A stretch of DNA of 64,000 bases, taken from NCBI RefSeq assembly GCF_009668025.1, contig NZ_WJXZ01000014.1:764448-828447 (forward strand). The letters are read 5' to 3'. Positions 24,148 to 38,431 of the stretch are shown in pieces. Origin of the DNA: Larkinella terrae. GTDB taxonomy: Bacteria; Bacteroidota; Bacteroidia; Cytophagales; Spirosomataceae. Position numbers and translations under genes: made by a program. Position 1 is the first letter of the stretch; every line of letters starts with the position of its first letter. The notes under the pieces were generated by a model. That model saw only the letters and a program-made list of their open reading frames with translations, had not been told where the DNA came from and did no database searches.

Positions 24148-26502
24148 TCATTTTAGCATATTCACAATATCTTTCCGACGGGATTCTGGGATTACGGTCA
24201 AAGATTCCAGTTTCCCATTTTTCAAAACCGCTTCCACTGTTGTGTTATACGGCGCGTGGAGTTTGACGTGAACATCCCAGTTTTTGGGCCAGGCCGGAAA
24301 CAGGTAGATCTTTTTACCGTCGGCCTGCAACAGCATTTCCTGCAGACCAATTTGGCCCGAACCGCCCCAGTTGTGGTCGGGTGTCCAGTCAAAACCGGGC
24401 CCCCAGAAGGCGGGAAACCGACGGCCGGAATTACCCAGCTTCAGTAGCGTCAATCGGGCGGCTTCGTCGGTCAAACCCAGCCGGGCTGCAAAAATATTGT
24501 CCTGCTTCCAGCCAATGTGACTCCGAAATTTCAGCGCATCCCGGTCGAACCGGTACGTATTGAGCGCGGTATCCAGGCCCGGTTTTCCAATTCCATAAAT
24601 ACCCCACGGAAAAACCGGGTAGAGTTGGGGCGTCTCGACATTGTTGATCCGTTCCCAAAGCTTGGCGGGCGCAATCGTCGGGTGGCCATCGAAGGATCGA
24701 AAGCTGAGCGGAGGAATCCGGTTAAGCATTTGTTGCCAGAACGTCCGTTTTTCGCTGGTCAAATAGGAGTCGGGCAGGTCCAGCAAACGCGTCAAAACCG
24801 TACGCAGGGCCGCAATCGTGGACGACGCATTATAGGTCATTTTGTAGGTTTCGGCGGCTGATCCCGGATACAAAATCAGTTTGTTTTCGCCATCGAACGC
24901 CTTGCTGCCCCGTTTTTTCGCCAGGTATTGGTAGTGTTCATTGAAAAAAGTCAGGCAGCTTTCGATAAACGGAATGTCGCCCGAAATGTCTTTTCCGGCG
25001 TAGCGCTCGGTTTCGAGCATCATCAGACAAAACTCCAGAACCGTATCCCACTCGTATTCGAGCCAGGCGTTGTATTCCATGCCTTTGTCGTAACCCGCCG
25101 GGCGTTTCCAGCCATATTCAGCGGAGTTGGGCAGTCCAAAATTCTCGATCTGTTCCGTAAAACTTGCGCCCTTGTGTTGCCAGTAAACGACGGTCCGTAA
25201 CTCGGCGGTTTTCAGGCTGTTCCGGTAAAAATCGAACTGCGGTTTCATCAATTCCCAGTCGCCGGTTTTCAGCATCGGCCAGTAGACCAGCCGCTGATTC
25301 TGAGCCGTATGAATGCCCCCGCCCCAGTTGCGAAAATCGGGCGTGAACCGCATCGACGAGTCGATCAGCGAGGGGTCGTAGGTAAACAGGCCGCCGTTGA
25401 ATTTGGTCGGGTAGGTACCGAACGCGTTGCAGCCCAGCATGTACCGGAACAACTGATAATTTCGCGCTACCTGCCATTCCGGCGAATTCGGGGCGGTTTC
25501 GACGTAAATGAAACTTCTCGCCCAGAAGTCGTTCCACCAGGTTTGCGTCCGTTGCTGAGCGGTTTTTGCCGACGAAACTGCTTCCTTTTTTACAACTTCC
25601 AGCCTTTTTTTCCACTCTTCGACACTCGCTGCCTGAGCTGTATGGAGATGAAGAACCAGTTCATGTTTCCGCGCAGCGGTTTGGCTGACCAGTTTCCAGC
25701 CCTGAAATTCCGTGTCAAGGTACTTGCCCTGATAGGTTCCGGCCGGTTTTAGTCCGCTGCCCGACAAGAGCCCGCCAAACGTCAGATTGGTTAACGGATT
25801 AAACAGTTGATTTTTAACGCTATCCAGCCCCTGCTGCTGGACGGTTACATCGAAGGCCGAGCGTTCGGGGCCATTTCGGTGGTAAAAAACCAGCGCGTCG
25901 TTGTTGAACCGGATCTCGTCTTTTAATGTCTTGACCTCGCCCTGCGGAGCCCATTTATACGAATTGGCGTTGTTTTCCCGGCCTTTTGTGACGCGATCGA
26001 CGTGCCTCCAGCTTTCAAAAGAGGCTTCAGTTTTGACGACCTTGCTGGCAGTAACATCGACGTGAATTACTGGTCGGAACACATCGACCCAAACCGTGAT
26101 CTGTGCCGAAAAACCGGAGCGGGCCCCGGTGATCTCGATGTGACCTTTGTTCAGCACCAGTTCCTGTTTGAATGTATCGCCCGATTCAAAGGGATTGGGC
26201 GAGAGCTTCAGCCGAACGCGCCCCAGTTTCAACAGCGTATTGTTGTGATCGAAGGTGCCGCTTCGGGCCACATAAAACAGCAATTCGCCGTTTTCCACCC
26301 AGACATTTAACCCAATATCGCCCCCGCCACAGGGCATCGATTCGGATGAGTTTTTACTCGGACTGGTCCAGATTTCGTTGTATTGATTAAGCGAAACGGA
26401 TTGCGCTCGACTAATTAATAAGCTGCTGAAAAACAGAGTATTGACAAGCAGGAGTGTGGCTATGGACCGGTTTCCGGAAAAGCGGGCGATGGACTGGCTC
26501 AA
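24148..26502 (-). CDS. DUF5703 domain glycosidase-like protein (GH95/GH65-type fold)
   Basis: About 784 residues if translation starts at TTG 26502, which gives an ideal signal peptide (RSIATLLLVNTLFFSSLLISRAQS). The frame is open to another TTG at 26550 and holds no ATG before the signal peptide. The N-terminal beta-sandwich starts with SESMPCGGGDIGLNVWVENGE, the DUF5703 mark. The C-terminal (alpha/alpha)6 region includes AYNA/EYEWDTVLEF and GPGFDWTPDHNWGGSGQIGLQEML, near the position of the catalytic base in GH95-like enzymes. It probably hydrolyses an alpha-linked sugar in pectin. Convergent with GH127 and divergent from the following gene. Confidence 0.75.
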   Translation of the reverse strand: MSQSIARFSGNRSIATLLLVNTLFFSSLLISRAQSVSLNQYNEIWTSPSKNSSESMPCGGGDIGLNVWVENGELLFYVARSGTFDHNNTLLKLGRVRLKLSPNPFESGDTFKQELVLNKGHIEITGARSGFSAQITVWVDVFRPVIHVDVTASKVVKTEASFESWRHVDRVTKGRENNANSYKWAPQGEVKTLKDEIRFNNDALVFYHRNGPERSAFDVTVQQQGLDSVKNQLFNPLTNLTFGGLLSGSGLKPAGTYQGKYLDTEFQGWKLVSQTAARKHELVLHLHTAQAASVEEWKKRLEVVKKEAVSSAKTAQQRTQTWWNDFWARSFIYVETAPNSPEWQVARNYQLFRYMLGCNAFGTYPTKFNGGLFTYDPSLIDSSMRFTPDFRNWGGGIHTAQNQRLVYWPMLKTGDWELMKPQFDFYRNSLKTAELRTVVYWQHKGASFTEQIENFGLPNSAEYGWKRPAGYDKGMEYNAWLEYEWDTVLEFCLMMLETERYAGKDISGDIPFIESCLTFFNEHYQYLAKKRGSKAFDGENKLILYPGSAAETYKMTYNASSTIAALRTVLTRLLDLPDSYLTSEKRTFWQQMLNRIPPLSFRSFDGHPTIAPAKLWERINNVETPQLYPVFPWGIYGIGKPGLDTALNTYRFDRDALKFRSHIGWKQDNIFAARLGLTDEAARLTLLKLGNSGRRFPAFWGPGFDWTPDHNWGGSGQIGLQEMLLQADGKKIYLFPAWPKNWDVHVKLHAPYNTTVEAVLKNGKLESLTVIPESRRKDIVNMLK

Positions 26503-26592
26503 GGCTAATATGGTATAATTATGGGGAAAAATAATAGAGAGTTGCGTCAAATTTACAGACTAAATTTGTGAAGATACGGTCTAAAACGGGCA

Positions 26593-28143
26593 ATGATAAA
26601 TTTTAGAAAGACAGCAAAATGGGGGTGGTTGATCGGAATGTTGCAGGTAACGATTTGCGCGGCTCAGCCAGCCATTTTAACCACGACTCCACTTAAGAAA
26701 TACGTAACGTATTTTAATTCCATCGACGGTGAAGCCGTGAAAAACTACGTTCCGAACGAACAGGCGTTCGACTGGCTTTCCCGGAATATTCCGCTCTTCG
26801 ATTGCCCCGACTCGACGTTGCAAACCGTCTATTACTACCGTTGGTGGGCGTTTCGGAAACACCTGAAACAGACGCCCGAAGGCTTCCTTTTTACGGAATT
26901 TATCACAAAAGTCAACCACGCCGGGAAATACAATGCCGTCAGCAGTGCGCTGGGCCATCACATCTACGAAGGGCGCTGGCTGCACGATCCGCAATACATC
27001 GACGACTACATTGCGTTCTGGCTGTACGTCGATCCGAAGCACACGGCACCCCGGTTTCACGCGTTCAGCAGTTGGGTGGACGATGCGGTTTACAACCGGT
27101 TTCTGGTCAACCTGGACCATTCCTTCATCCGGAAAAATCTGACAGCTTTGGATGCTGATTACCGCAAGTGGCAGCAGGAGAGGCAGTTAGCGAGCGGTTT
27201 GTTCTGGCAATTCGACGTACGGGATGCGATGGAAGAATCCATCAGCGGTTCGCGAAAAGAGAAAAACCGACGCCCGACCATCAATAGTTACATGTACGGC
27301 AATGCCAAAGCGTTGGCAGAAATGGCGGTCATCGCTAAGAATGATACGCTGAAAAACCGCTACCGGAAGCTCGCAACGGAACTGAAAAAACTGACGCTGG
27401 ATAGCTTGTGGAGCGAGGATGCCCATTTTTTTGAAGTGAAATCCGGGAAAGGCGGTTTTGCGAATGCCCGCGAAGCCATCGGGTTTATTCCGTGGTACTT
27501 CAACCTGCCTGACGACAGACCGACGTATGCGCAGCAGTGGGATCAGTTGACCGATACGACCGGTTTTTCGGCGCCCTGGGGGATTACGACGGCCGAGCGT
27601 CGCCACCCGCTTTTTCGCACGCACGGGTCCGGTCACAGTTGCGAATGGGATGGTGCGGTCTGGCCGTTCGCGACGACTCAGACGTTGAAAGGCTTGTCGA
27701 ATCTGTTGACCAACTATCGGCATCAGGCAAGCATGACCAAGGCGGTTTTTTACGAGGAACTGCTGAAATACGCGCGTTCGCACACCATGAACGGAACGAT
27801 TTACCTGGGTGAATACCAGGACGAGAAAACCGGTGAATGGTTGAAAGGCGACAATCCACGCAGCAAATTCTACAACCACTCCGGTTTCGCCGATCTGATT
27901 ATCAGTGATTTAGTTGGATTGAAGCCCCGGGCCGACGACGTGCTGGACATTCGGCCGTTGGTTCCCGATCAGTGGGAGTGGTTTTGCCTGGACAATGTGA
28001 AATACCACGGCAAAATCCTGACGGTTCTGTACGACAAAACCGGCAAACACTACGGAAAAGGCAAAGGATTCCGGGTTTTTGCGAACGGAAAAGAAGTAAT
28101 TCGAACTGCAAGAGTGGAAGCGGTTTCCGGAAAAAGACTTTAG
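26593..28143 (+). CDS. MGH1-like (GH63/GH37-type) glycoside hydrolase
   Basis: 516 residues with signal peptide (LIGMLQVTICAAQ). The body is an (alpha/alpha)6 barrel: YYYRWWAFRKH, GHHIYEGRWLHDP, DVRDAMEESISGSR, PTINSYMYGNAKALAEMA and HSCEWDGAVWPFATTQTL. These resemble the glucosidase/trehalase clan (GH-G) and bacterial proteins annotated as MGH1-like. The Asp in DVRDAMEES and Glu in GEYQDEKTGEW are possible catalytic acids (inference). Divergent from the DUF5703 gene with only a short gap, so the promoters overlap. Likely periplasmic; substrate unknown. Confidence 0.75.
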   Translation: MINFRKTAKWGWLIGMLQVTICAAQPAILTTTPLKKYVTYFNSIDGEAVKNYVPNEQAFDWLSRNIPLFDCPDSTLQTVYYYRWWAFRKHLKQTPEGFLFTEFITKVNHAGKYNAVSSALGHHIYEGRWLHDPQYIDDYIAFWLYVDPKHTAPRFHAFSSWVDDAVYNRFLVNLDHSFIRKNLTALDADYRKWQQERQLASGLFWQFDVRDAMEESISGSRKEKNRRPTINSYMYGNAKALAEMAVIAKNDTLKNRYRKLATELKKLTLDSLWSEDAHFFEVKSGKGGFANAREAIGFIPWYFNLPDDRPTYAQQWDQLTDTTGFSAPWGITTAERRHPLFRTHGSGHSCEWDGAVWPFATTQTLKGLSNLLTNYRHQASMTKAVFYEELLKYARSHTMNGTIYLGEYQDEKTGEWLKGDNPRSKFYNHSGFADLIISDLVGLKPRADDVLDIRPLVPDQWEWFCLDNVKYHGKILTVLYDKTGKHYGKGKGFRVFANGKEVIRTARVEAVSGKRL

Positions 28144-28298: not shown

Positions 28299-29546
28299 TC
28301 AAACTCGAATCGTTGGCAGTGTTCCAAAACCCCTCAACAACAAGTTCTTACGCTGGATTGCCCGGGGCAAATCCGCCCGCAGATCCGGAAATTGATGCAG
28401 TAATATCGGGAACGCCTGCATGGCCTGCATCCGGGCCAGGTTGGCGCCCAGACAAAAGTGTGAACCGTAGCCAAAGGCCAGGTGCTTGTTTTTCTGACGG
28501 GTGATATCCAGCCGATCCGCTCCTTCAAACTGGAGTTCGTCGCGGTTGGCCGAACCCAGACAGACGTAAATCTGCTCCCCGGCCCGAATGGTCTGGCCCG
28601 AAACGTCGACATCTTCCAGCGCAATCCGCGATGTAATCTGGACGGGGCTGTCGTATCGTAACATTTCCTCAACGGCCGGTTTCAGGAGTTCTGGTTGTTG
28701 ATGGAGCAGGGCGAGTTGATCCGGAAACGCCGTTAAAGCCGCAAAACCGTTCCCGATCAGGTTGCGGGTGGTTTCTTCGCCCGCTACAAACAGGTTGGCA
28801 ATCAGCGAGATCAGATCGTCGCGGTCGATGGGCTGGCCGTCGGCGCTTCGCTGGGCGAGTAGCTTCCCAATCATCGTATCGGCCGGTTTTTCTTGGTGGG
28901 CCGTAATGCAGTCGTCGATAAAAACCAGAAAATCGCTCGCGGCCTGATTGATTTCAATCATTTCGGCCTGCGTCAGCATCGGTTCAAAAATCGTGGCAAG
29001 TCGCTCACCCCAGTGCTTCAGTTCTTCAATATGGGATTCCGGAAAACCCATCAATTGCGAAATGACCCGAACGGGCAGCGGTTTGGCAAAATCATCGATG
29101 AGGTCAATGGTGGTCTTGGTGGCCAAATCGGCCGTCAGTTCCGCCAGAACCGCCTGCACACAGCCCGCGAAATTGAGCGATGGCCATATTTTCATCACCA
29201 TCTCCCGCGTTCGCCCGTGCATCGGGCGTCGCAGGTACAGCAGCCAGTTGTACGACGCCTGATACGTCGGGTACATTTCGATAGCGGAACTGTTGACTGT
29301 CAGGGTTTTATCCCGAAAATACGAAGGCATGTCGATGACATCGATTCGCTTGTCCATCAAAACCGTGCAGACATCGGCGTAGCGACTGACCACCCAGTCG
29401 CCGGTTTTAAGCTGATGAACCGGGTCCAGTTCGCGTAAATTCCGGTACATCGGGTAGGGATTGATTCGGTTGACCGGTGAAAACGGAGCCCAGAGGGTCG
29501 ACAACCCTTTGCCCATTAGCGTTCCTTGCGAAGCGGGTGCGTTCAT
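28299..29546 (-). CDS. Cytochrome P450
   Basis: 415 residues from ATG 29546; a GTG one codon upstream is also in frame. All P450 hallmarks are present: I-helix AGEETT (255-260), ExxR as E294-R297 and the heme loop FGYGSHFCLG with ligand Cys365. No membrane anchor, so it is a soluble class I-type enzyme needing a separate ferredoxin and reductase, neither of which is nearby. It overlaps the acyl carrier protein gene by one base (TGATG). By analogy to P450s acting on carrier-bound acyl chains, it probably oxidises an acyl-ACP made by the adjacent ligase (inference). Confidence 0.92.
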   Translation of the reverse strand: MNAPASQGTLMGKGLSTLWAPFSPVNRINPYPMYRNLRELDPVHQLKTGDWVVSRYADVCTVLMDKRIDVIDMPSYFRDKTLTVNSSAIEMYPTYQASYNWLLYLRRPMHGRTREMVMKIWPSLNFAGCVQAVLAELTADLATKTTIDLIDDFAKPLPVRVISQLMGFPESHIEELKHWGERLATIFEPMLTQAEMIEINQAASDFLVFIDDCITAHQEKPADTMIGKLLAQRSADGQPIDRDDLISLIANLFVAGEETTRNLIGNGFAALTAFPDQLALLHQQPELLKPAVEEMLRYDSPVQITSRIALEDVDVSGQTIRAGEQIYVCLGSANRDELQFEGADRLDITRQKNKHLAFGYGSHFCLGANLARMQAMQAFPILLHQFPDLRADLPRAIQRKNLLLRGFGTLPTIRV

Positions 29547-29818
29547 CACGACGGCGTTTGGGTGGGAAGATACTCATCAACTAACCAGTCGGACAAACTG
29601 GCGATATCGGGCATTTCCCAGAAAATAGACGGGTCAATAGCGGTGCCGAGCCAGGTTTCCAGGTCAACGGCTAAGGTAACAACGAAAACCGAGTCGAGCC
29701 GGAGCGAAGCAAACGGTTGGTTGACATCAATCTGCTCGGGAGCAATTTTAAGTTCAGTGGCAATTCGTTGAGTAAGCCAATTTTGGATGGCCACTGAAGA
29801 TGGATGGGAAACAGGCAT
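29546..29818 (-). CDS. Stand-alone acyl carrier protein
   Basis: 90 residues, the size of a discrete ACP/PCP. The phosphopantetheine attachment serine is Ser43 in RLDSVFV, a variant of the DSL motif (Leu to Val). The flanking helices and the acidic IDPSIFWEMPDIASLSDWL end are typical of carriers paired with fatty acyl-AMP ligases. It is coupled to the P450 and lies about 100 bp after the ligase stop. It should hold the acyl chain as a thioester during oxidation and transfer. Confidence 0.88.
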   Translation of the reverse strand: MPVSHPSSVAIQNWLTQRIATELKIAPEQIDVNQPFASLRLDSVFVVTLAVDLETWLGTAIDPSIFWEMPDIASLSDWLVDEYLPTQTPS

Positions 29819-29919
29819 TACAGCGTTATCGTTTTGGGTTATTGAAGTTTAGTTAAGATTTTAAAAATCAACTAGTTAAAAATATAGATATTCGTTGGTC
29901 TAAGCTGATCGGTCAACCA

Positions 29920-31671
29920 TCAGGATTGTTGTTCGCTGATCGGCAGCGAATCCCAGCGGTAATGTTCGGCCAGATTGTTTTCAAGGAAAGCCCGCTGGCA
30001 GGCCGACCGCTGAACTTTGCCGCTGGTTGTTTTAAACAAGCCGTTGGGCCGCAGTAAAACCACCGCGACGGGCGCCAGCGCATGCCGCAGGCCGATTTCC
30101 CGCAGAATCGCGTGCGCAATGTCCTGAACGGGCGCCGTCGGTAGAGCCACCCGTTTCAATTCATGAACGACGACGAGCTGTTCGCCTTCGCTGGTGTACA
30201 CCGAGAACGCGGCTCCGGCGTTGCTCGCCAGCGCTTCGTGACTTTGCTCAACGGTCAGTTCAATGTCCTGCGGATAATGATTCGTTCCCCGAATAATGAT
30301 TAAATCTTTGAGCCGACCGGTTACAAAAAGGCCTTCTTTTTCCCGAAAAAAACCGGCGTCTCCCGTTCGCAGAAAAGGCCCTTCGCCCGTGCTGGTATAG
30401 CCTTCAAACCAGTCGGCGGTCAGTTCGGGTTTGTTCCAGTAGCCCCGCGCCACGCTGGGGCCTTTACTCCAGATTTCGCCAATTTCACCTTCCGGACAAA
30501 CCCGACCGGTTTCCGGATCGACAATCCGGAGCACGCTGTCGTTCATCGGCCAGCCCGAGCTGACCAGCTCGCGGGTTCCCGGTGTTCCGGCAGGTCGGGT
30601 GATGATCCGGCCGTCGGTCAGGGCGTTGGCGTCGACGGTTTCGAGGAAAGGCTGACGGTCGCTGCGGCACATCGTCACGGCCAGCGTCGATTCGGCCAGG
30701 CCAAAGCAGGTAAACAGACTTTTGGGGCTAAAACCGCTGACTTCGAACGCTTCCGTAAACCGGTGGACGGTGCGGGCCCGAATGGGTTCGGCCGCGTTGT
30801 AAATGTGTTTGACCCGGTGTAAATCCAGCCCGGCCCGTTCTTCGGGTGTCGAGCGGTCAACGCAGAAATCAAAGATAAAATTAGGCGCACCGCCGTACGT
30901 ACCGCCGTATTTGTCGAAAGCCCGTAGCCAGCGAAGGGGTCGTTGCACGACGTGTACGGGATTGAGTAACACGGCTTTAAAACCGCAGTAAATGGGCTGC
31001 ATGATGCCGTCGATCAGCCCCATATCGTGGAACGACGGCAACCAGCAAACGGATACGCTCGACGCATCGTTCTGAAAAGCGTGTCGGATAAAGGCCGAAT
31101 TGGCCATGATGTTGGCGTGGGTCACCATCACGCCTTTGGGCTGGCTGGTCGAGCCGGAGGTGTATTGCAGCAGCGCCAGATCGTCGGGGGCGGGCAGGGG
31201 AAATTCCGGAGTTTCGGCGGTCGGAATCGTGTCGGTAATCAGCCAGTTCAGGGACTGAAACCACGAATCGTTACTGAAATTTTTCTGAAGGATTTCGTAG
31301 GTTTTGGCGGTCGTCATCCCGGTTTTAATTCCCGCATCTTCCACCAGATAACCAATTTTATTGGCCCCCCGGTTTTTACCCGGAACGGCAATCGGAACGG
31401 CGACCGTTCCGGCATATAAACACCCCAAAAAAGCTTCAATAAAATCGAGTCCCTGCGGATATACCAGTAAGAAAAGCGGACGCTCCGGCGATGGAGCCGG
31501 AGTGGATGAAAGATGGCTGGCAATGGTTCGGGCGCGAGCGTCTAACTGACTGTATCGGAGTATTTCTTCCTCATTTTCGCCGTCTTTTAAATAGACAAAT
31601 GCAGGTTGGTCGGGAGTGTGAGTGGCACGAAAACGAACGATTTCAACAATGGTCTTAAACGTTCCAACCAT
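29920..31671 (-). CDS. Fatty acyl-AMP ligase (FAAL-type adenylate-forming enzyme)
   Basis: About 583 residues from ATG 31671 (MVGTFKTIVEIVRFRATHTP). A longer frame to 31851 would overlap the ABC transporter gene and lacks homology-like sequence. The P-loop LQYTSGSTSQPKGVMVTH lies at 168-185; PSFHDMGLIDGIMQPIYCG is the FAAL-type motif. LRTGDAGFF and VTGRLKDLIIIRG complete the adenylation core. It activates a fatty acid as acyl-AMP and loads it on the carrier protein encoded next. The C-terminal catalytic Lys is seen in KTTSGKVQRSACQ. Cytoplasmic. Confidence 0.92.
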   Translation of the reverse strand: MVGTFKTIVEIVRFRATHTPDQPAFVYLKDGENEEEILRYSQLDARARTIASHLSSTPAPSPERPLFLLVYPQGLDFIEAFLGCLYAGTVAVPIAVPGKNRGANKIGYLVEDAGIKTGMTTAKTYEILQKNFSNDSWFQSLNWLITDTIPTAETPEFPLPAPDDLALLQYTSGSTSQPKGVMVTHANIMANSAFIRHAFQNDASSVSVCWLPSFHDMGLIDGIMQPIYCGFKAVLLNPVHVVQRPLRWLRAFDKYGGTYGGAPNFIFDFCVDRSTPEERAGLDLHRVKHIYNAAEPIRARTVHRFTEAFEVSGFSPKSLFTCFGLAESTLAVTMCRSDRQPFLETVDANALTDGRIITRPAGTPGTRELVSSGWPMNDSVLRIVDPETGRVCPEGEIGEIWSKGPSVARGYWNKPELTADWFEGYTSTGEGPFLRTGDAGFFREKEGLFVTGRLKDLIIIRGTNHYPQDIELTVEQSHEALASNAGAAFSVYTSEGEQLVVVHELKRVALPTAPVQDIAHAILREIGLRHALAPVAVVLLRPNGLFKTTSGKVQRSACQRAFLENNLAEHYRWDSLPISEQQS

Positions 31672-31802
31672 AATTATTAGGGTGAAATAAAGTTGAGCAG
31701 GTAACAATAGGTTAATGATAACAAACTTTTGGTTGCGATCACAGTATTGCTTTGTTAAATCCCGGACTAATTCCCGATAATTGTGTAAACGGCGATGAAA
31801 TA

Positions 31803-33596
31803 TTATCCTATTTCCGATTCTTCCGTTTTCTGAACTTTCTGGTGCTGCCACATTTCCTGAAAAACCGCACTTCGCTGCATCAGTTCCACAAAACTTCCTT
31901 CGTCGATCAGGTGGCCGTTGCGCAGGATGTAAATGTGGTCGAACATGGCCAGCAAATGCAGCCGGTGCATGGTGGACAGAATGGCTTTGTCGCGAAAACC
32001 GGCGAGCATATTCTGGTAAATTTCAAACTCGGTTTTTGAATCAACGCTGCTGGTGGGTTCGTCGAGCAGAATGATGTTGCTACTCCGGGCGGCCAACACG
32101 CCCCGCGCCAGTGCCAGCCGTTGTTTCTGCCCGCCCGACAGGTTGACGCCCTTCTCCTGAATATTGGTTTCCAAACCGTGGGGCAACTGGCCGATTACGT
32201 CCGTAAATCGCGCCATTTCGCAGGCTTGCTGCACATCGGCTTCGTCGAACGGCAGGCCCAGCGTGATGTTGTAAGCAATCGTGTTTTCGAAGATTTCCGG
32301 CTCCTGGGGCATGAGCGTCACCGTGTCGGCAATCAGGCTCAATTCCGGATAGCTTTCGCCGTCGACCCGGAGTTCCAGATTCGGTTCGGGTGTATATAAA
32401 CCGCGCAGGAGCGTGAGCAGAGTGCTTTTTCCGCTGCCACTTTCCCCGATCAGGGCAATGCGCTGCCCGCGCCGAATCCGAATACGCAGGTCGTATAAAC
32501 CGGCCCGCTGCGGTTTTTGGGAAGGACCGGTTTCCTGGTCGTGCCGGAAATTCAGACGGTTTATGTCGATGGTTTGCCAGTTTGCGGGTAGCGTTTCGGT
32601 GGCTTCGGGGCGGTGCTGCTGCGCATAGGCTTCGCCAATGCTGCGGGCGGTCTGGACGTCGGTGTTGTGCTGAACGATGTCGGTATATTGAAAAGCCACG
32701 TCGGTAAACACACTGCTGAATTTGTTGATGTAACCCAACAACGTTACCAGTCCGCCGATCAGGAAGACATCGCCGGGCACGTAATGCTGGTAGACGTAAC
32801 CGACGGTGATGACGCCGTACATCAGGGCAATCAACATACTGGCCGCAAACCACTTCCATTCGTTGATGCGGACGTGACGGCGGAACGGCGGGAGAATGGC
32901 CATGATTTTGCCCAACAGACTGGTTTCCATCTGCTTCTCCAGCCGGAGCGTAATCACGGTAATGATGTTGGAAAGGCTGTCGAAAAGCGTGGACGACACC
33001 TCGTGTTCGCGTTCGTTGGACTCATCGACGGCTTTGATGAACGGTTTATCGAATTTGAGAATCACCCAGATGGTCAGCGCGCCGAGCAAAACGCCGATAC
33101 TGCCAAAAATGGGCGAAAAATAAACCATAGCTGCGAACGAAAACACGCATTTCGAAATGGTATGCAGGTACAGAAAACCGCTCTGAAAGAAATCCTTGAG
33201 GGCGTCGTTGGCCTTGCGAATCCGGTTGATGGTCGCACCGCTGTGGTGATCTTTGTGCCAGCTCACCGGCAGATTAAGCGTCTGGTGGTACAGTTCCGTC
33301 AGAAAATTGCGGCTGAGCGAAAACGCCAGTTCACGCTCCAGAATGCGGGCGGGTCCGTGAAAAACCCATTCGCCCAGTTGAAGCCCCACATAGGCAGCAG
33401 CATACCACAGGACAACGGACGTAACCGGGGCGTCTTTTTGCTGAATGGCCCCGACGAACCAGCCAAACAGCAGCGGCTCCATCGCCGAAACGACGTTGGC
33501 CAGAATGAACAGAAAATAAACCAGTAAAAACCGCCGTTTTTCGTGACGGGCGTAATGCCAGGCCGTGCGGAGCAGAGCCAGGTAAGGATTTTGCAT
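31803..33596 (-). CDS. ABC transporter, fused permease and ATPase (exporter type)
   Basis: 597 residues: a six-helix transmembrane domain (about 1-340) and ATPase (about 360-590). The Walker A GESGSGKST is near residue 385, signature LSGGQKQR near 480 and Walker B IILLDEPTSS near 510, all intact. It is a type IV (MsbA/LmrA-like) homodimer or half of a heterodimer. It lies in the P450/ACP/FAAL cluster, so it may export the product or a lipid precursor (inference). No second half-transporter is nearby. Confidence 0.9.
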   Translation of the reverse strand: MQNPYLALLRTAWHYARHEKRRFLLVYFLFILANVVSAMEPLLFGWFVGAIQQKDAPVTSVVLWYAAAYVGLQLGEWVFHGPARILERELAFSLSRNFLTELYHQTLNLPVSWHKDHHSGATINRIRKANDALKDFFQSGFLYLHTISKCVFSFAAMVYFSPIFGSIGVLLGALTIWVILKFDKPFIKAVDESNEREHEVSSTLFDSLSNIITVITLRLEKQMETSLLGKIMAILPPFRRHVRINEWKWFAASMLIALMYGVITVGYVYQHYVPGDVFLIGGLVTLLGYINKFSSVFTDVAFQYTDIVQHNTDVQTARSIGEAYAQQHRPEATETLPANWQTIDINRLNFRHDQETGPSQKPQRAGLYDLRIRIRRGQRIALIGESGSGKSTLLTLLRGLYTPEPNLELRVDGESYPELSLIADTVTLMPQEPEIFENTIAYNITLGLPFDEADVQQACEMARFTDVIGQLPHGLETNIQEKGVNLSGGQKQRLALARGVLAARSSNIILLDEPTSSVDSKTEFEIYQNMLAGFRDKAILSTMHRLHLLAMFDHIYILRNGHLIDEGSFVELMQRSAVFQEMWQHQKVQKTEESEIG

Positions 33597-33698
33597 GAAT
33601 GGTAGTTCGTTACGACGAATCGTAAGTAAAACGACAAAATACGCGCCAGAAAGTCATTTTTACTAGTATCGATGCACGTAACGAGGCCATTGGGCTGT

Positions 33699-35927
33699 CT
33701 AATGCACTTGTTGACTCTGGCCAGTCAGCTCTTTTTTCTCGGAATCGGTAAACAAAGATGCCCAATAATGCCAGACAATTTCCTGGATCTTGGGGGCTGA
33801 TAGACAACCTTTTCCCGATTTAAGCTCTTCCTGAAGACGTAGTTTGTCCTGCGGGTGTTGTTTGTGACCAAACGAGTGATTATAAGCCTGCTGTAATTTT
33901 TGCCGGCAATTTTCCAAAGCTTCCGCCGATTGGTCGAGTGTATAGCGGTGGCCCCAGTAGCAACCCGATTCAAAATGAATAAGCCGATAATGATCTTTCC
34001 GGGGGCGGGGTTCCCGACCGGGCTGGAGGTTCAATTCTATAATGCGGTTATAGTCACCATTGATGTAGCTCATCAGGAAAGGGTGCGAATTCTCAAGTTG
34101 TATATAGCGTTCGCTGTCGATATGAATCATGGAATAAGAACCGGTGTGGAAGGTGTCGGTCGGAATCAAAACCTCGGTCAAGGCAATCAGCCCACGGTCG
34201 GTTCTGGTCATCGAAATGCCATAGGCTCGCTGAATCTTATTCCGTGGAGTCATGTGAACCATGAACAGGTAGGTGTCGAGCCAGTCGATTGCCAGCCGTT
34301 TCTGAATGGTAAGTCGCAGGCAGGCACTGCCATCGTAATGCGCATCACCCGTTAGGATATGGCCATCGCTGGAAACCACGGAAACACTGCCGCCGGATGA
34401 AATCCGGATGGGTGTCTGAACGATAAAATATTCGTAGTTAGGATTGGCGTCCGACCCGTGATTTTCTTTGCGCAGCGAATAGCTGAACCAGTTGCCAACG
34501 TAATTAACAACGGAAGCGCCCCGACTCGACTTGTCATCCAGGTATTCGTTGATGATTGGCCCATCGGTGACGGTTTTGTGGGATTTCCCAATAAAAAATG
34601 GCCGGGCATCCTGCTCTTCGATCAATTGCTGGGCCTGAGCCGTCGCATTGACCAGAGAGATGCTGCTTACTTTAATCTCCGCACTGTCTAACTTTAACCA
34701 TAACCGGCCACTGATAAGCTGGAATTCGGCGGAAAGCCCACTGAAACAGCCGTAGAGTGTTCCATTTTCGTCCAGTCGGGCCTGAATTACGAATTGGTAC
34801 CGGTAGTAGTATTCTTCCGGTGAGTTGGAGCCGGCGTTATTTTGCTTCTTTTCCTGGATAAAATCAAACGAGCCCATCAGGAAGCCCACATTCAGCCATT
34901 TAAAATGACCAATGTAAGGCCGGGCGTTATCATGATCCATTTCCATTTCCGCCCGGCCATTTTTTTCAATGATCAACTTAAATTGTTCAAGCGTTTGACT
35001 GGACGACCGAACCAGCATTCCCCGGTAGGTACCCGCAAACCGCGTGAGTTGTTCCGCATTGAATTCCCTGGGGTAGGTCTTATTCTGAACCAGAAAGGTA
35101 TCCCGGACAATCCAGCGCTGCTGCGCCAGGGCGTAATAGATTTTATCCGGAATCTCAACCTCCGAGGCTTTCGTGGTCAGGAGTTGAATCGCTTCTGCTT
35201 CCGTTTTGCGTTCCATAATGAATAACCCGCCGGCCGGAATGTTGGTCGACCGCTCGACCGTCACATAATTTCCGGCAAATACATTTCGTTTTGATCGGTT
35301 ACCCGTTCCGACCAATAGCGACATTTGCAGAAAGACCGGGCGCGACGAACCGCCCGCCGGGACGTCGTGCAGGTTGATAAACAAATTTTTACCCCCGGGG
35401 TAGTCAAGAACGGGACCCTGCATATGGTAGTGTGCGATCTCGCCATAATCCTGATTGTTGATGTATAAATCCGCCTTCTTCCAGTCGTCACTCATACGCA
35501 TGTAACCGATGCCCGCCGTTGCTACCCGCCAGTAGTAAAGCGCAAAATACTCGTCGGCGCTGCCTTCGGGCTTAAAATCAGGATTGGCCAGAATCCAGCC
35601 TTCCGTGGGGTCCGAGACGGGGACGTTTTCCCTGTTCCGGCTGACTTTAAAAGGATATTTGGTTTCGGCGATCTCGCACCATTTTTTGAATTTGGCGATG
35701 ATTTCATCGGCCCGGTTCTGAGTTGCCGAATTCAGACCCTCACTGTACTCGGGTTTTATCTCTCTTCGGAAATTATTATAGGACAAATCCTTAACGCATA
35801 TTTTATCAAAGATCTCAGAGTCGGTGGGGGTTTGCTTTACTTTTTGAGCTTTTATCTTTTGTCTAAATTCAGCGGCAATGGTAATCCATAGTTTTGCTTC
35901 TGCAATGCTTTTTAGGCGGTCAGTCAT
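33699..35927 (-). CDS. Unknown 742-residue protein with two similar beta-rich domains
   Basis: I do not recognise a family. There is no signal peptide or membrane segment, so it is predicted cytoplasmic. Residues 1-90 are helical and charged (SIAEAKLWITIAAEFRQKI). Two later parts look related: residues about 300-430 (FAGTYRGMLVRSSSQ ... YGCFSGLSAEFQLISGRLWL) and about 480-610 (YVGNWFSYSLRKEN ... YGISMTRTDRGLIALTEVL), each a lipocalin-sized strand-rich barrel. The C-terminus is helical and Lys/Gln-rich. It is the first gene of the minus-strand cluster that leads to the ABC transporter, FAAL, ACP and P450, with a 102-bp gap. Confidence 0.75.
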   Translation of the reverse strand: MTDRLKSIAEAKLWITIAAEFRQKIKAQKVKQTPTDSEIFDKICVKDLSYNNFRREIKPEYSEGLNSATQNRADEIIAKFKKWCEIAETKYPFKVSRNRENVPVSDPTEGWILANPDFKPEGSADEYFALYYWRVATAGIGYMRMSDDWKKADLYINNQDYGEIAHYHMQGPVLDYPGGKNLFINLHDVPAGGSSRPVFLQMSLLVGTGNRSKRNVFAGNYVTVERSTNIPAGGLFIMERKTEAEAIQLLTTKASEVEIPDKIYYALAQQRWIVRDTFLVQNKTYPREFNAEQLTRFAGTYRGMLVRSSSQTLEQFKLIIEKNGRAEMEMDHDNARPYIGHFKWLNVGFLMGSFDFIQEKKQNNAGSNSPEEYYYRYQFVIQARLDENGTLYGCFSGLSAEFQLISGRLWLKLDSAEIKVSSISLVNATAQAQQLIEEQDARPFFIGKSHKTVTDGPIINEYLDDKSSRGASVVNYVGNWFSYSLRKENHGSDANPNYEYFIVQTPIRISSGGSVSVVSSDGHILTGDAHYDGSACLRLTIQKRLAIDWLDTYLFMVHMTPRNKIQRAYGISMTRTDRGLIALTEVLIPTDTFHTGSYSMIHIDSERYIQLENSHPFLMSYINGDYNRIIELNLQPGREPRPRKDHYRLIHFESGCYWGHRYTLDQSAEALENCRQKLQQAYNHSFGHKQHPQDKLRLQEELKSGKGCLSAPKIQEIVWHYWASLFTDSEKKELTGQSQQVH

Positions 35928-36194: not shown

Positions 36195-36728
36195 ATGGCA
36201 GCACTTCTGTATTACCTGACCCGGCTGGGCCTGATTTCGCTGATAGAAGCGTTTCACATGGCTTACAATGCCAAGTTTCTGAATGCCGTACTACACGAAC
36301 CCATGACGTTTGAAGTGGTGTTTGCGGTAACGGTATTGTTGTCGCTAACATCGGCGGCTCTCCGCATGAATCGTCCCCTGGCTTCTGCCCAACTGAACCT
36401 CACCAAAATTCTGGGGGGGGCCGTCTGGTCCTCCTACCTGCTGGTGATAGCCCGTGTGTTTATCGATCACGAAGGGAAATTTATCTTCGACTTTTCTACG
36501 TTTGCCTGGCTCAAACTGGCCGCCACCCTGATTGTGTTGGCTTACTGTGTACTGGGAGCGGAGGTTTTGACTGCCGTTAAGTATATCGCGCGGTTTCCGG
36601 TCAAATCCGTCAGAATCGGCAGCAAAGGACGGAAAAAGACGACCAGGCTGCGGCCGCCAAAATCCGCGGAAAAGCAACCGGTTAGTCGGTTACGCGGGAA
36701 GTCATCAGAGGGAACGAATCTGGCATGA
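36195..36728 (+). CDS. Small hypothetical membrane protein
   Basis: 177 residues with about four hydrophobic segments (about 5-25, 38-57, 72-90, 105-127) and a positively charged tail (RIGSKGRKKTTRLRPPKSA), so the C-terminus is probably cytoplasmic. No family recognised. It stands alone with a clear terminator downstream. Confidence 0.65.
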   Translation: MAALLYYLTRLGLISLIEAFHMAYNAKFLNAVLHEPMTFEVVFAVTVLLSLTSAALRMNRPLASAQLNLTKILGGAVWSSYLLVIARVFIDHEGKFIFDFSTFAWLKLAATLIVLAYCVLGAEVLTAVKYIARFPVKSVRIGSKGRKKTTRLRPPKSAEKQPVSRLRGKSSEGTNLA

Positions 36729-36798
36729 CCTACAGGATCAGAAACTACAACGGGCTTATGGAAACAGACGTCAGCCGAATCGAGCCGGTTCAGATTTT

Positions 36799-36820
36799 GG
36801 GTGAATCTTTCGATTCACCC
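36799..36820 (+). terminator. Intrinsic terminator after the small membrane protein gene
   Basis: GGGTGAATC (36799-36807), a TTTC loop and GATTCACCC (36812-36820) followed by ATTTTTA: perfect stem and T run. Confidence 0.85.
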
Positions 36821-36862
36821 ATTTTTATGGCCAATTGCTACCGGATATCGGGCGTGAAAAGG

Positions 36863-38269
36863 TTATAAATCGTACGTAAAATTAAAGAAAATACCGGTCT
36901 GGCCCTGCCGGTTGACGGAGTAACTGATGCGGCCGACGATGTTGTAGAAGGTCGCAATGTCCAGCGCGACGCCACCGCCGTACAGCCACGAATTCGCCAG
37001 ACGGCTTTGGTATTCCTGCGCCAGCGTGCTGCCCACGTAACCCGCGTCGCCAAACATGCTGAGATACAACGCCAGCGGAACCGTGCTGAATTGTTTCATC
37101 GGAACCCAGTTAAGCTGCTTCCGAACGTTCATCAACTGGTATTTCAGGGTATTTCGAACGAGACCATACCGCTGACCATCAATAACATACAATTCATATC
37201 CCCGGACGAAATCCGTCAGATAACCCAAACCGCGCAGGTTGATATACGGTTGGCGGTCGGGCCAGGAGAGTTTGCCGCGCAGGCTGTTGCTGGCGTAAAA
37301 CTTCCCGCCCATCGGCCAGTAGCGGGTGTAGCTGGCCGTCATTTCGAACAGCCGCAGGTTGTCGGATCGCAGCAAACCGTACTGATTGGCGGCCAGGTTG
37401 AGGTAATGGCCCCGCAGCGGGTAGGCCACGGCGTCGCGCCGGTCGTGGGTGAACAGGTAACTCAGCAGAAAATACCGCTGCCGGGTTTGCCCATTCAGGA
37501 AATAATCGGGGTTGAGCTTGGCCACGGTGTCGGCAATCGAGTTGCGGACGAACCGCAGTTCCAGGCGGTGAAAATTATAAAACTGGTTCCGGCGCGTCAG
37601 AATAACGTTCGTATAAAACCGGTCGCGCATGAGGTCTTCGCTCCGAAAATAAACGAGTTTGTCGAAGGCCGAGCGGTAGGCAACTTCCTTGTTGGTCTGG
37701 TACGACGCGCCCACGCTGATGCCGGTTTTCTGTGCCTTATCGATGTACGGAAGGGTGTATAAAACCTGCGTTCGGCGCGTAAAACCGAACTCGAAAATGG
37801 CGTTGATTTTGTCGGCGTTGCCGGTTACATTTTTGTAATTCAGCCGCGCGCCGTAGATCGTCCGCCGGAAGCTGCGGCCCCGTTCATACCACCATTCGTT
37901 GAAATTCCGGTCGGCCAGATCGAAAACCGGTATCACGAAAATGTACCAGCGTTCCTTCACCGTCACGTCAATGTCTACCTCATGCGGCCCCACTTCCCGG
38001 GCCACCACGTCGACGGTAATAAAGAGGTTGGTATTGGCAATCTTGCGCTGATCCCAGGCCAGTTTTTCGGTCAGTTGCTGCCGCTGGATGGTGTCACCGG
38101 TTTTTACTTCCAGCTCACGCAGGATGATGCGCTCCCGCGTTTTGTGGTTGCCCTGAATGGTGACCGAGCGAATTACCCGGAAATCGTTCTGCACCGAATC
38201 CGCCACGGCCTGCGATTTTGCCGTAGTATCCGCTAATGATAAGGTCCAGAAGAGGAAAGATAGTAGCAT
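36863..38269 (-). CDS. BamA/TamA-family outer-membrane protein
   Basis: 468 residues from ATG 38269; the upstream TTG is less likely. After a signal peptide come one or two POTRA-like repeats (IRSVTIQGNHKTRERIILRELEVKTGD, residues about 30-110). A 16-strand Omp85 barrel (about 130-468) ends in the aromatic strand IFFNFTYDL. RHGHYLNL-type and YLTDFVRGYELY segments match surface-antigen motifs. It is shorter than BamA, so it is a TamA-like or group-specific Omp85 protein. Monocistronic, divergent from the sugar transporter gene. Confidence 0.85.
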   Translation of the reverse strand: MLLSFLFWTLSLADTTAKSQAVADSVQNDFRVIRSVTIQGNHKTRERIILRELEVKTGDTIQRQQLTEKLAWDQRKIANTNLFITVDVVAREVGPHEVDIDVTVKERWYIFVIPVFDLADRNFNEWWYERGRSFRRTIYGARLNYKNVTGNADKINAIFEFGFTRRTQVLYTLPYIDKAQKTGISVGASYQTNKEVAYRSAFDKLVYFRSEDLMRDRFYTNVILTRRNQFYNFHRLELRFVRNSIADTVAKLNPDYFLNGQTRQRYFLLSYLFTHDRRDAVAYPLRGHYLNLAANQYGLLRSDNLRLFEMTASYTRYWPMGGKFYASNSLRGKLSWPDRQPYINLRGLGYLTDFVRGYELYVIDGQRYGLVRNTLKYQLMNVRKQLNWVPMKQFSTVPLALYLSMFGDAGYVGSTLAQEYQSRLANSWLYGGGVALDIATFYNIVGRISYSVNRQGQTGIFFNFTYDL

Positions 38270-38431
38270 CAAACGAGCGCGGGTGACGTAGGCATTTACA
38301 AAAATACCGGAATAAAAAAATAGGTAAAAACAATCTTAGAATCTTGCAACAAAATCCTTATTATTGTCAGAACCGCGCCCATTTGGGACGAATTCGCTAA
38401 CCTAAACATCTGCTATTCTTCGTTTTCTCTC

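Follow-up and report, generated by a model that had tools for sequence, protein, structure and literature searches.

What would five adjoining minus-strand genes of Larkinella terrae make, and which of them belong together? The window, the whole stretch of 64,000 nucleotides analysed here, is part of contig C6 in a genome of 7.85 Mb. Between positions 28299 and 35927 it holds genes for a cytochrome P450, an acyl carrier protein (ACP), a fatty acyl-AMP ligase (FAAL), an ABC exporter and a protein of 742 amino acids (aa) (Table 1). The existence of all five, described in the earlier note on this DNA, was verified, with Pfam matches for all but the 742-aa protein; the one-base overlap that it reported between the stop of the ACP gene and the start of the P450 gene is indeed present (TGATG, base 29546 being common to both). 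Judging from sequence, FAAL, ACP and P450 are the trio of a module that continues, in relatives, into a DltB-like membrane-bound O-acyltransferase (MBOAT) and an SGNH-like protein. The trio is probably the cytoplasmic half of a carrier-dependent, Dlt-like MBOAT-SGNH acylation pathway.

Gene order and distribution of the module

The order FAAL-ACP-P450 recurs in four other genomes of the family, with P450s that are 91% (G138), 82% (G136), 64% (G139) and 32–33% (G158) identical to that of the window. G136 and G138 keep the order ABC-FAAL-ACP-P450, the 742-aa gene not being present; G139 and G158 keep the trio without the ABC gene, and there it is followed by an MBOAT gene (PF03062) and a gene for a protein of 338–354 aa. 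Given these four genomes, and 27 of the family's 222 that hold the wider module, the core gene order is more than chance. Comparison of gene order in relatives, a check suggested by the earlier note, upholds the trio and leaves the exporter and the 742-aa protein outside the set.

Run against the 222 family genomes, the MBOAT profile matched 27 at E ≤ 1.4e-206, the next match standing at 2.5e-126 (74 genomes at E ≤ 1e-110), and the FAAL profile matched 29 at E ≤ 4.8e-192, the next standing at 7.5e-176 (31 genomes at E ≤ 1e-120). All 27 MBOAT genomes lie inside the 29 FAAL genomes, and at E ≤ 1.4e-206 none of the 222 has the MBOAT without FAAL. We read the regions of the 29 FAAL genomes and the next two with hidden Markov models (HMMs) of the five families. 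All 27 MBOAT genomes hold all five genes, contiguous in 16 and split in 11. Eight of the split genomes carry FAAL-ACP apart from ACP-P450-MBOAT-SGNH, FAAL and P450 each having an ACP of its own; the other three, all Larkinella, carry FAAL-ACP-P450 apart from MBOAT-SGNH. P450-MBOAT-SGNH is contiguous in 24 of the 27, and an ACP gene stands directly before the P450 gene in every one, including the eight with a second ACP. The module is seen in three genera; G112 and G046, read by the same HMMs, showed FAAL only.

The FAAL profile matched 21 of 390 genomes of the order at E ≤ 1e-120, of which 11 belong to a genus of the same family, g8. Ten of these 11 show the order FAAL-ACP-P450-MBOAT-SGNH-like, and G061 is split. 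Neighbours in the g8 regions were compared with the module seeds, domain scanning being confined to one symporter of locus L170. A FAAL-alignment search of an 84,980-species collection covered the best 80 of 369 confirmed loci with two short peptide patterns, and so sets no bound on the distribution; relatives among these best 80 occur in Larkinella knui, L. rosea, L. soli and a Cytophagales metagenome-assembled genome (MAG).

Where is the second half of the module in the window's own genome (G000)? The MBOAT gene lies about 0.67 Mb from the window genes, with two tandem SGNH-like genes below it (Table 1). Upstream of it are a glycosyltransferase gene and a polysaccharide deacetylase gene (best NCBIfam match PgaB, below cut-off). 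G000, G136 and G138 have the MBOAT gene after the glycosyltransferase, then the SGNH-like gene or genes, then aspS, a gene named from sequence, without a family search. Five module-less Larkinella genomes (G133, G134, G135, G137 and G140) have the glycosyltransferase directly followed by aspS, the insert being absent. A second, unlinked site is thus filled in three Larkinella with FAAL-ACP-P450 and empty in five without. The two tandem SGNH-like genes are 60% identical; G136 and G138 have a single such gene in the regions read. We rejected the glycosyltransferase and deacetylase beside MBOAT in three Larkinella genomes as module members: the glycosyltransferase has matches in 93/222 family genomes and in 9/9 Larkinella, five of them module-less.

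Enzyme families and the proposed acylation pathway

Families and motifs, like the gene order and joint distribution above, can be read off directly. The FAAL matches PF00501 (E 2.9e-64, 217.7 bits) and PF23024, a DIP2-like C-terminal domain (E 1.3e-10, 41.7 bits), both over cut-off. Its best solved matches are 7r7g, listed as a polyketide synthase (PKS) (E 1e-143), and 3kxw (E 3e-110), both of which we take to be FAAL domains; FadD23, a long-chain fatty acid-AMP ligase, is matched at E 1e-90. FAALs carry a specific insertion not found in acyl-CoA synthetases, and compared with three acyl-CoA synthetases encoded in its own genome this enzyme has about 16–26 extra residues. The listed FAAL open reading frame (ORF) opens at GTG 31851; alignment with relatives places the start at an ATG further downstream. 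Other FAAL frames vary in length: that of G056 (L182:10369-11679) is truncated to 437 aa, with the four remaining module genes at their usual length, and five loci (L106, L109, L111, L114 and L115) from MAGs labelled Bacteroidetes, Verrucomicrobiota, Crocinitomicaceae and Flavobacteriales hold a FAAL of 1081–1085 aa directly followed by a P450. The L109 and L111 FAALs, the two of these five that were Pfam-scanned, end in a reductase-type domain, NAD_binding_4.

The ACP (PF00550, E 9.7e-14) has an attachment site, D42-S43, that is invariant in 15/15 aligned ACPs; its NCBIfam matches are four PKS and ACP models, none named DltC. The P450 (PF00067, E 1.7e-23) is closest, among solved structures, to PksS (E 9e-61), a P450 hydroxylase (E 4e-59) and BioI (3ejb, E 1e-58). 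Cys365, E294/R297 and A255/E258/T259, which we take to be the haem cysteine, the ExxR motif and the I-helix acid-Thr pair, do not vary among the 16 sequences aligned, which include one from Nostoc. At E ≤ 1e-40, P450 matches occur in 19/222 family genomes, including its own; beyond the four relatives named above, 14 match at 28–30% identity, and those genomes have no match to the FAAL profile. A plasmid search with the P450 returned five records at 33–37% identity.

For the MBOAT profile, DltB is the sole match among solved structures (E 2e-29, limit E 1) and also the sole NCBIfam match (TIGR04091, 158.9 bits against a cut-off of 375), so that the protein is homologous to DltB and not a member by the curated score. 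GLWHG and a C-terminal FxYxxF occur in 27/27 module MBOATs. The SGNH-like protein has an N-terminal hydrophobic stretch, judged by eye, and carries G[ST]SRT followed by DxxH[LV]N in 27 of 28 proteins, G054 being without the strict second motif.

From these features we infer each catalytic step and the class of acceptor, and also that the acyl group is fatty, that it is oxidised while on the ACP and that the SGNH-like protein has the SGNH fold. FAAL would activate a fatty acid with ATP and load it onto the ACP, and the P450 would oxidise the chain while it is bound to the ACP, hydroxylation being the simplest option. The DltB-like MBOAT would receive the acyl group from the ACP, and its conserved His would pass it to the Tyr of its own FxYxxF at the periplasmic face; the SGNH-like protein would then take it on a Ser and esterify an envelope glycan or lipid. 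Oxidation before transfer is the simplest order, because the ACP gene precedes the P450 gene in 27/27 and the P450 stays with MBOAT-SGNH in the eight genomes split between the two ACPs; the three split Larkinella genomes differ from these eight in that their P450 stays with FAAL-ACP. The sequence FAAL to ACP to P450 oxidation, already proposed in the earlier note, is hence retained as the best reading of the three-gene core, without the exporter and the 742-aa protein that the note had placed beside it.

The transfer step has a precedent in PatA: according to PMC12148441, the acyl group travels to the SGNH partner on the Tyr of FxYxxF, as it does in DltX, and the MBOAT His is needed. By the same account, MBOAT-SGNH pathways other than Dlt have no such carrier protein and evidently use acyl-CoA (PMC12148441). 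Since the operon described here does hold a carrier, feeding with acyl-ACP, as by DltA and DltC, would be expected. The product is likely an acylated component of the envelope, rather than a free compound that leaves through the ABC exporter. As to the acyl group itself, we lean slightly towards an oxidised long chain that crosses the inner membrane, FAAL and P450 tailoring the acyl-ACP and MBOAT-SGNH attaching the chain to a glycan or lipid in the periplasm or at the surface.

How far does the likeness to known systems go? Like Dlt (DltABCDX, teichoic acid D-alanylation), the module has an adenylating enzyme, a stand-alone carrier, a DltB-like MBOAT, a partner with SGNH-type motifs and the Tyr of an FxYxxF hexapeptide. 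Unlike Dlt, it has a FAAL-like enzyme, ranking with fatty acid-AMP ligases, in place of the D-Ala ligase DltA, and an added P450; FxYxxF sits on the MBOAT itself and not on a DltX microprotein, ORFs below 60 aa not having been searched for a second copy. The MBOAT falls short of the DltB cut-off as given above, and the partner resembles DltD in motifs only. The host, too, differs, being Gram-negative. PatA/PatB-type systems, the Gram-negative envelope O-acyltransferases, share the MBOAT with its own FxYxxF and His beside an SGNH-like gene, and differ from the module by the FAAL, ACP and P450 found here in the same operon or genome set. JamABC-type alkyne modules consist of a FAAL, a desaturase/acetylenase and an ACP with an adjoining PKS or nonribosomal peptide synthetase (NRPS). 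They resemble the trio in combining a FAAL, a stand-alone ACP and an oxidising enzyme whose presumed substrate is the carrier-bound chain; here a P450 and not a desaturase is next to the ACP, and MBOAT-SGNH follows in most relatives. The P450 BioI acts on acyl-ACP and is related to this one, though PksS and another P450 score higher; its context is biotin synthesis, not FAAL and MBOAT-SGNH. The parts are known and their combination is apparently undescribed: we found no description of FAAL, ACP, P450 and MBOAT-SGNH together in the open-access literature, which does not prove that none exists.

Weighing the alternatives

Several observations speak against the proposed envelope acylation pathway, some of them concerning the independence of the genomes. 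G065 and G092 hold FAAL-ACP alone, the other module genes not being found in their regions; 22 of the 27 module genomes belong to one genus, and the eight and the three split genomes may each represent one event. As the module genomes are related, 27/27 stands for far fewer independent events, and a naive Fisher test on 27/2/0/193 (1e-32) ignores descent and overstates independence. The SGNH-like protein has no Pfam, NCBIfam or relevant PDB sequence match and no DltD family match. Structural proof of its fold was attempted, but the AlphaFold model was too weak (mean pLDDT 56.5, two sequences): Foldseek gave no match at E ≤ 0.001, and its SGNH-type matches (E. coli thioesterase I, E 0.22–0.48, which we take to have the SGNH fold) were mixed with top-ranked beta-carbonic anhydrases. 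Finally, the Larkinella P450 is 38% identical to a P450 of a Nostoc PKS locus, against 23–31% to the non-Larkinella module P450s. Independent recruitment of P450s by two lineages was considered, and we make no such claim: in a tree of 27 P450s (12 module, 14 generic, one Nostoc), all 12 module sequences fall on the same side of one branch; the tree carries long-branch warnings and is compatible with a single origin.

It could be argued that MBOAT-SGNH is an ordinary acetyl-CoA O-acetyltransferase of AlgI or PatA type, and FAAL-ACP-P450 an unrelated operon with the same distribution. Related genomes do inherit unrelated genes together, and three other MBOATs of the window's genome also end in FxYxxF, which is not a module marker; its presence in all four supports the transfer mechanism and not a link with FAAL. 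We regard this explanation as very unlikely in view of the contiguity of the five genes and of P450-MBOAT-SGNH across three genera, the two different splits that both keep all five genes, the second site filled in three module Larkinella and empty in five module-less ones, and the lack of any family genome with the MBOAT and no FAAL.

A small-molecule pathway, making an oxidised or cleaved fatty acid in the manner of BioI or the alkyne modules for export by the adjoining ABC transporter, the line taken in the earlier note, draws on the similarity of the P450 to BioI and PksS. It also draws on a locus of Nostoc linckia (L056, 7971-17704), in which a fused FAAL-ACP, a P450 38% identical to that of the window and a type I PKS stand in a row; the Nostoc trio apparently feeds polyketide assembly, and the same trio can thus serve product assembly. 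The exporter fits this poorly. It has matches at E ≤ 1e-100 in 121/222 family genomes, and in G133 and G135, two Larkinella genomes that lack a FAAL match at E ≤ 1e-120, its gene directly adjoins an Omp85 gene. The same Omp85 gene is found upstream of the five genes in the window, separated there from the exporter gene by the 742-aa gene and a plus-strand ORF. Being widespread and beside Omp85 in FAAL-less Larkinella, it is judged an older neighbour and was rejected as a pathway member, contrary to the earlier note. No PKS, NRPS or desaturase was found among 29 Pfam-scanned proteins of the window (neighbours at 24148-28143 and 36195-38272) and of L030-L033, the g8 neighbours lying outside that scan. 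The genes that do travel with the trio are MBOAT and SGNH-like, partners missing from an account that ends in a free alkyne or a chain-cleaved product, and we consider such an account unlikely.

Envelope acylation might also proceed through MBOAT and the SGNH-like protein with another carboxylate, an aryl, amino or hydroxy acid activated by a FAAL-like enzyme. The sequence does not reveal the substrate; curated fatty acid-AMP ligase models in NCBIfam rank high and none is over cut-off (PRK05850, 412.9 against 775 bits), and the L170 enzyme has a FAAL-type insertion with about 15 fewer residues. We hold such a substrate to be rather unlikely, as several fatty acid-AMP ligases are among the top-ranking families and structures of the FAAL, with no enzyme specific for amino acids near the top.

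Neighbouring genes and possible significance

The 742-aa protein, the remaining gene that the earlier note had drawn into the pathway, was rejected as a pathway enzyme. It does not occur in the loci retrieved from G136, G138, G139 and G158, and its matches, at just 24–26% identity, occur in 5/221 other family genomes. These distant relatives are open frames of 765–895 aa. The protein has no Pfam match over cut-off, no PADLOC match and no match in the plasmid search. Downstream of the P450 (24148-28143) stand carbohydrate-type genes for a DUF5703 protein and an MGH1-like glycoside hydrolase (Pfam). A promoter and terminator scan gave the same counts as shuffled sequence and is uninformative. 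Elsewhere in the genome, two pairs of NRPS-sized AMP-binding frames of near-equal spacing and lengths (G000:C12:333816-342946 and G000:C7:202613-211741) are possibly a duplicated cluster.

Table 1. Features of the locus in the window and of the second site in the same genome
Feature	Position	Strand	Size	Remarks
P450, bacterial cytochrome P450	28299..29546	-	415 aa	PF00067
ACP, stand-alone acyl carrier protein	29546..29818	-	90 aa	PF00550
FAAL, fatty acyl-AMP ligase	29920..31671	-	583 aa from ATG 31671	PF00501, PF23024; putative DltA-like role
ABC exporter	31803..33596	-		PF00664 + PF00005; judged a neighbour outside the module
742-aa protein, family without name	33699..35927	-	742 aa	No Pfam match over cut-off; judged outside the module
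MBOAT	G000:C6:127946-129370			Second site
SGNH-like genes, two in tandem	G000:C6:126934-127986 and 125848-126843			Below MBOAT (L118:6849-8987)

If the oxidised long-chain reading is true, the module would join Dlt as a second MBOAT-SGNH pathway fed by a carrier, with a P450 step in line. Some Cytophagales would then attach an enzymatically tailored fatty acyl group to their envelope by a Dlt-like route, and bacterial MBOAT-SGNH transfer would not be limited to acetyl and D-alanyl groups. The system would permit a test of whether bulky acyl chains can pass from a carrier protein to a bacterial MBOAT, and the P450 would gain a defined ACP partner and a genetic readout.

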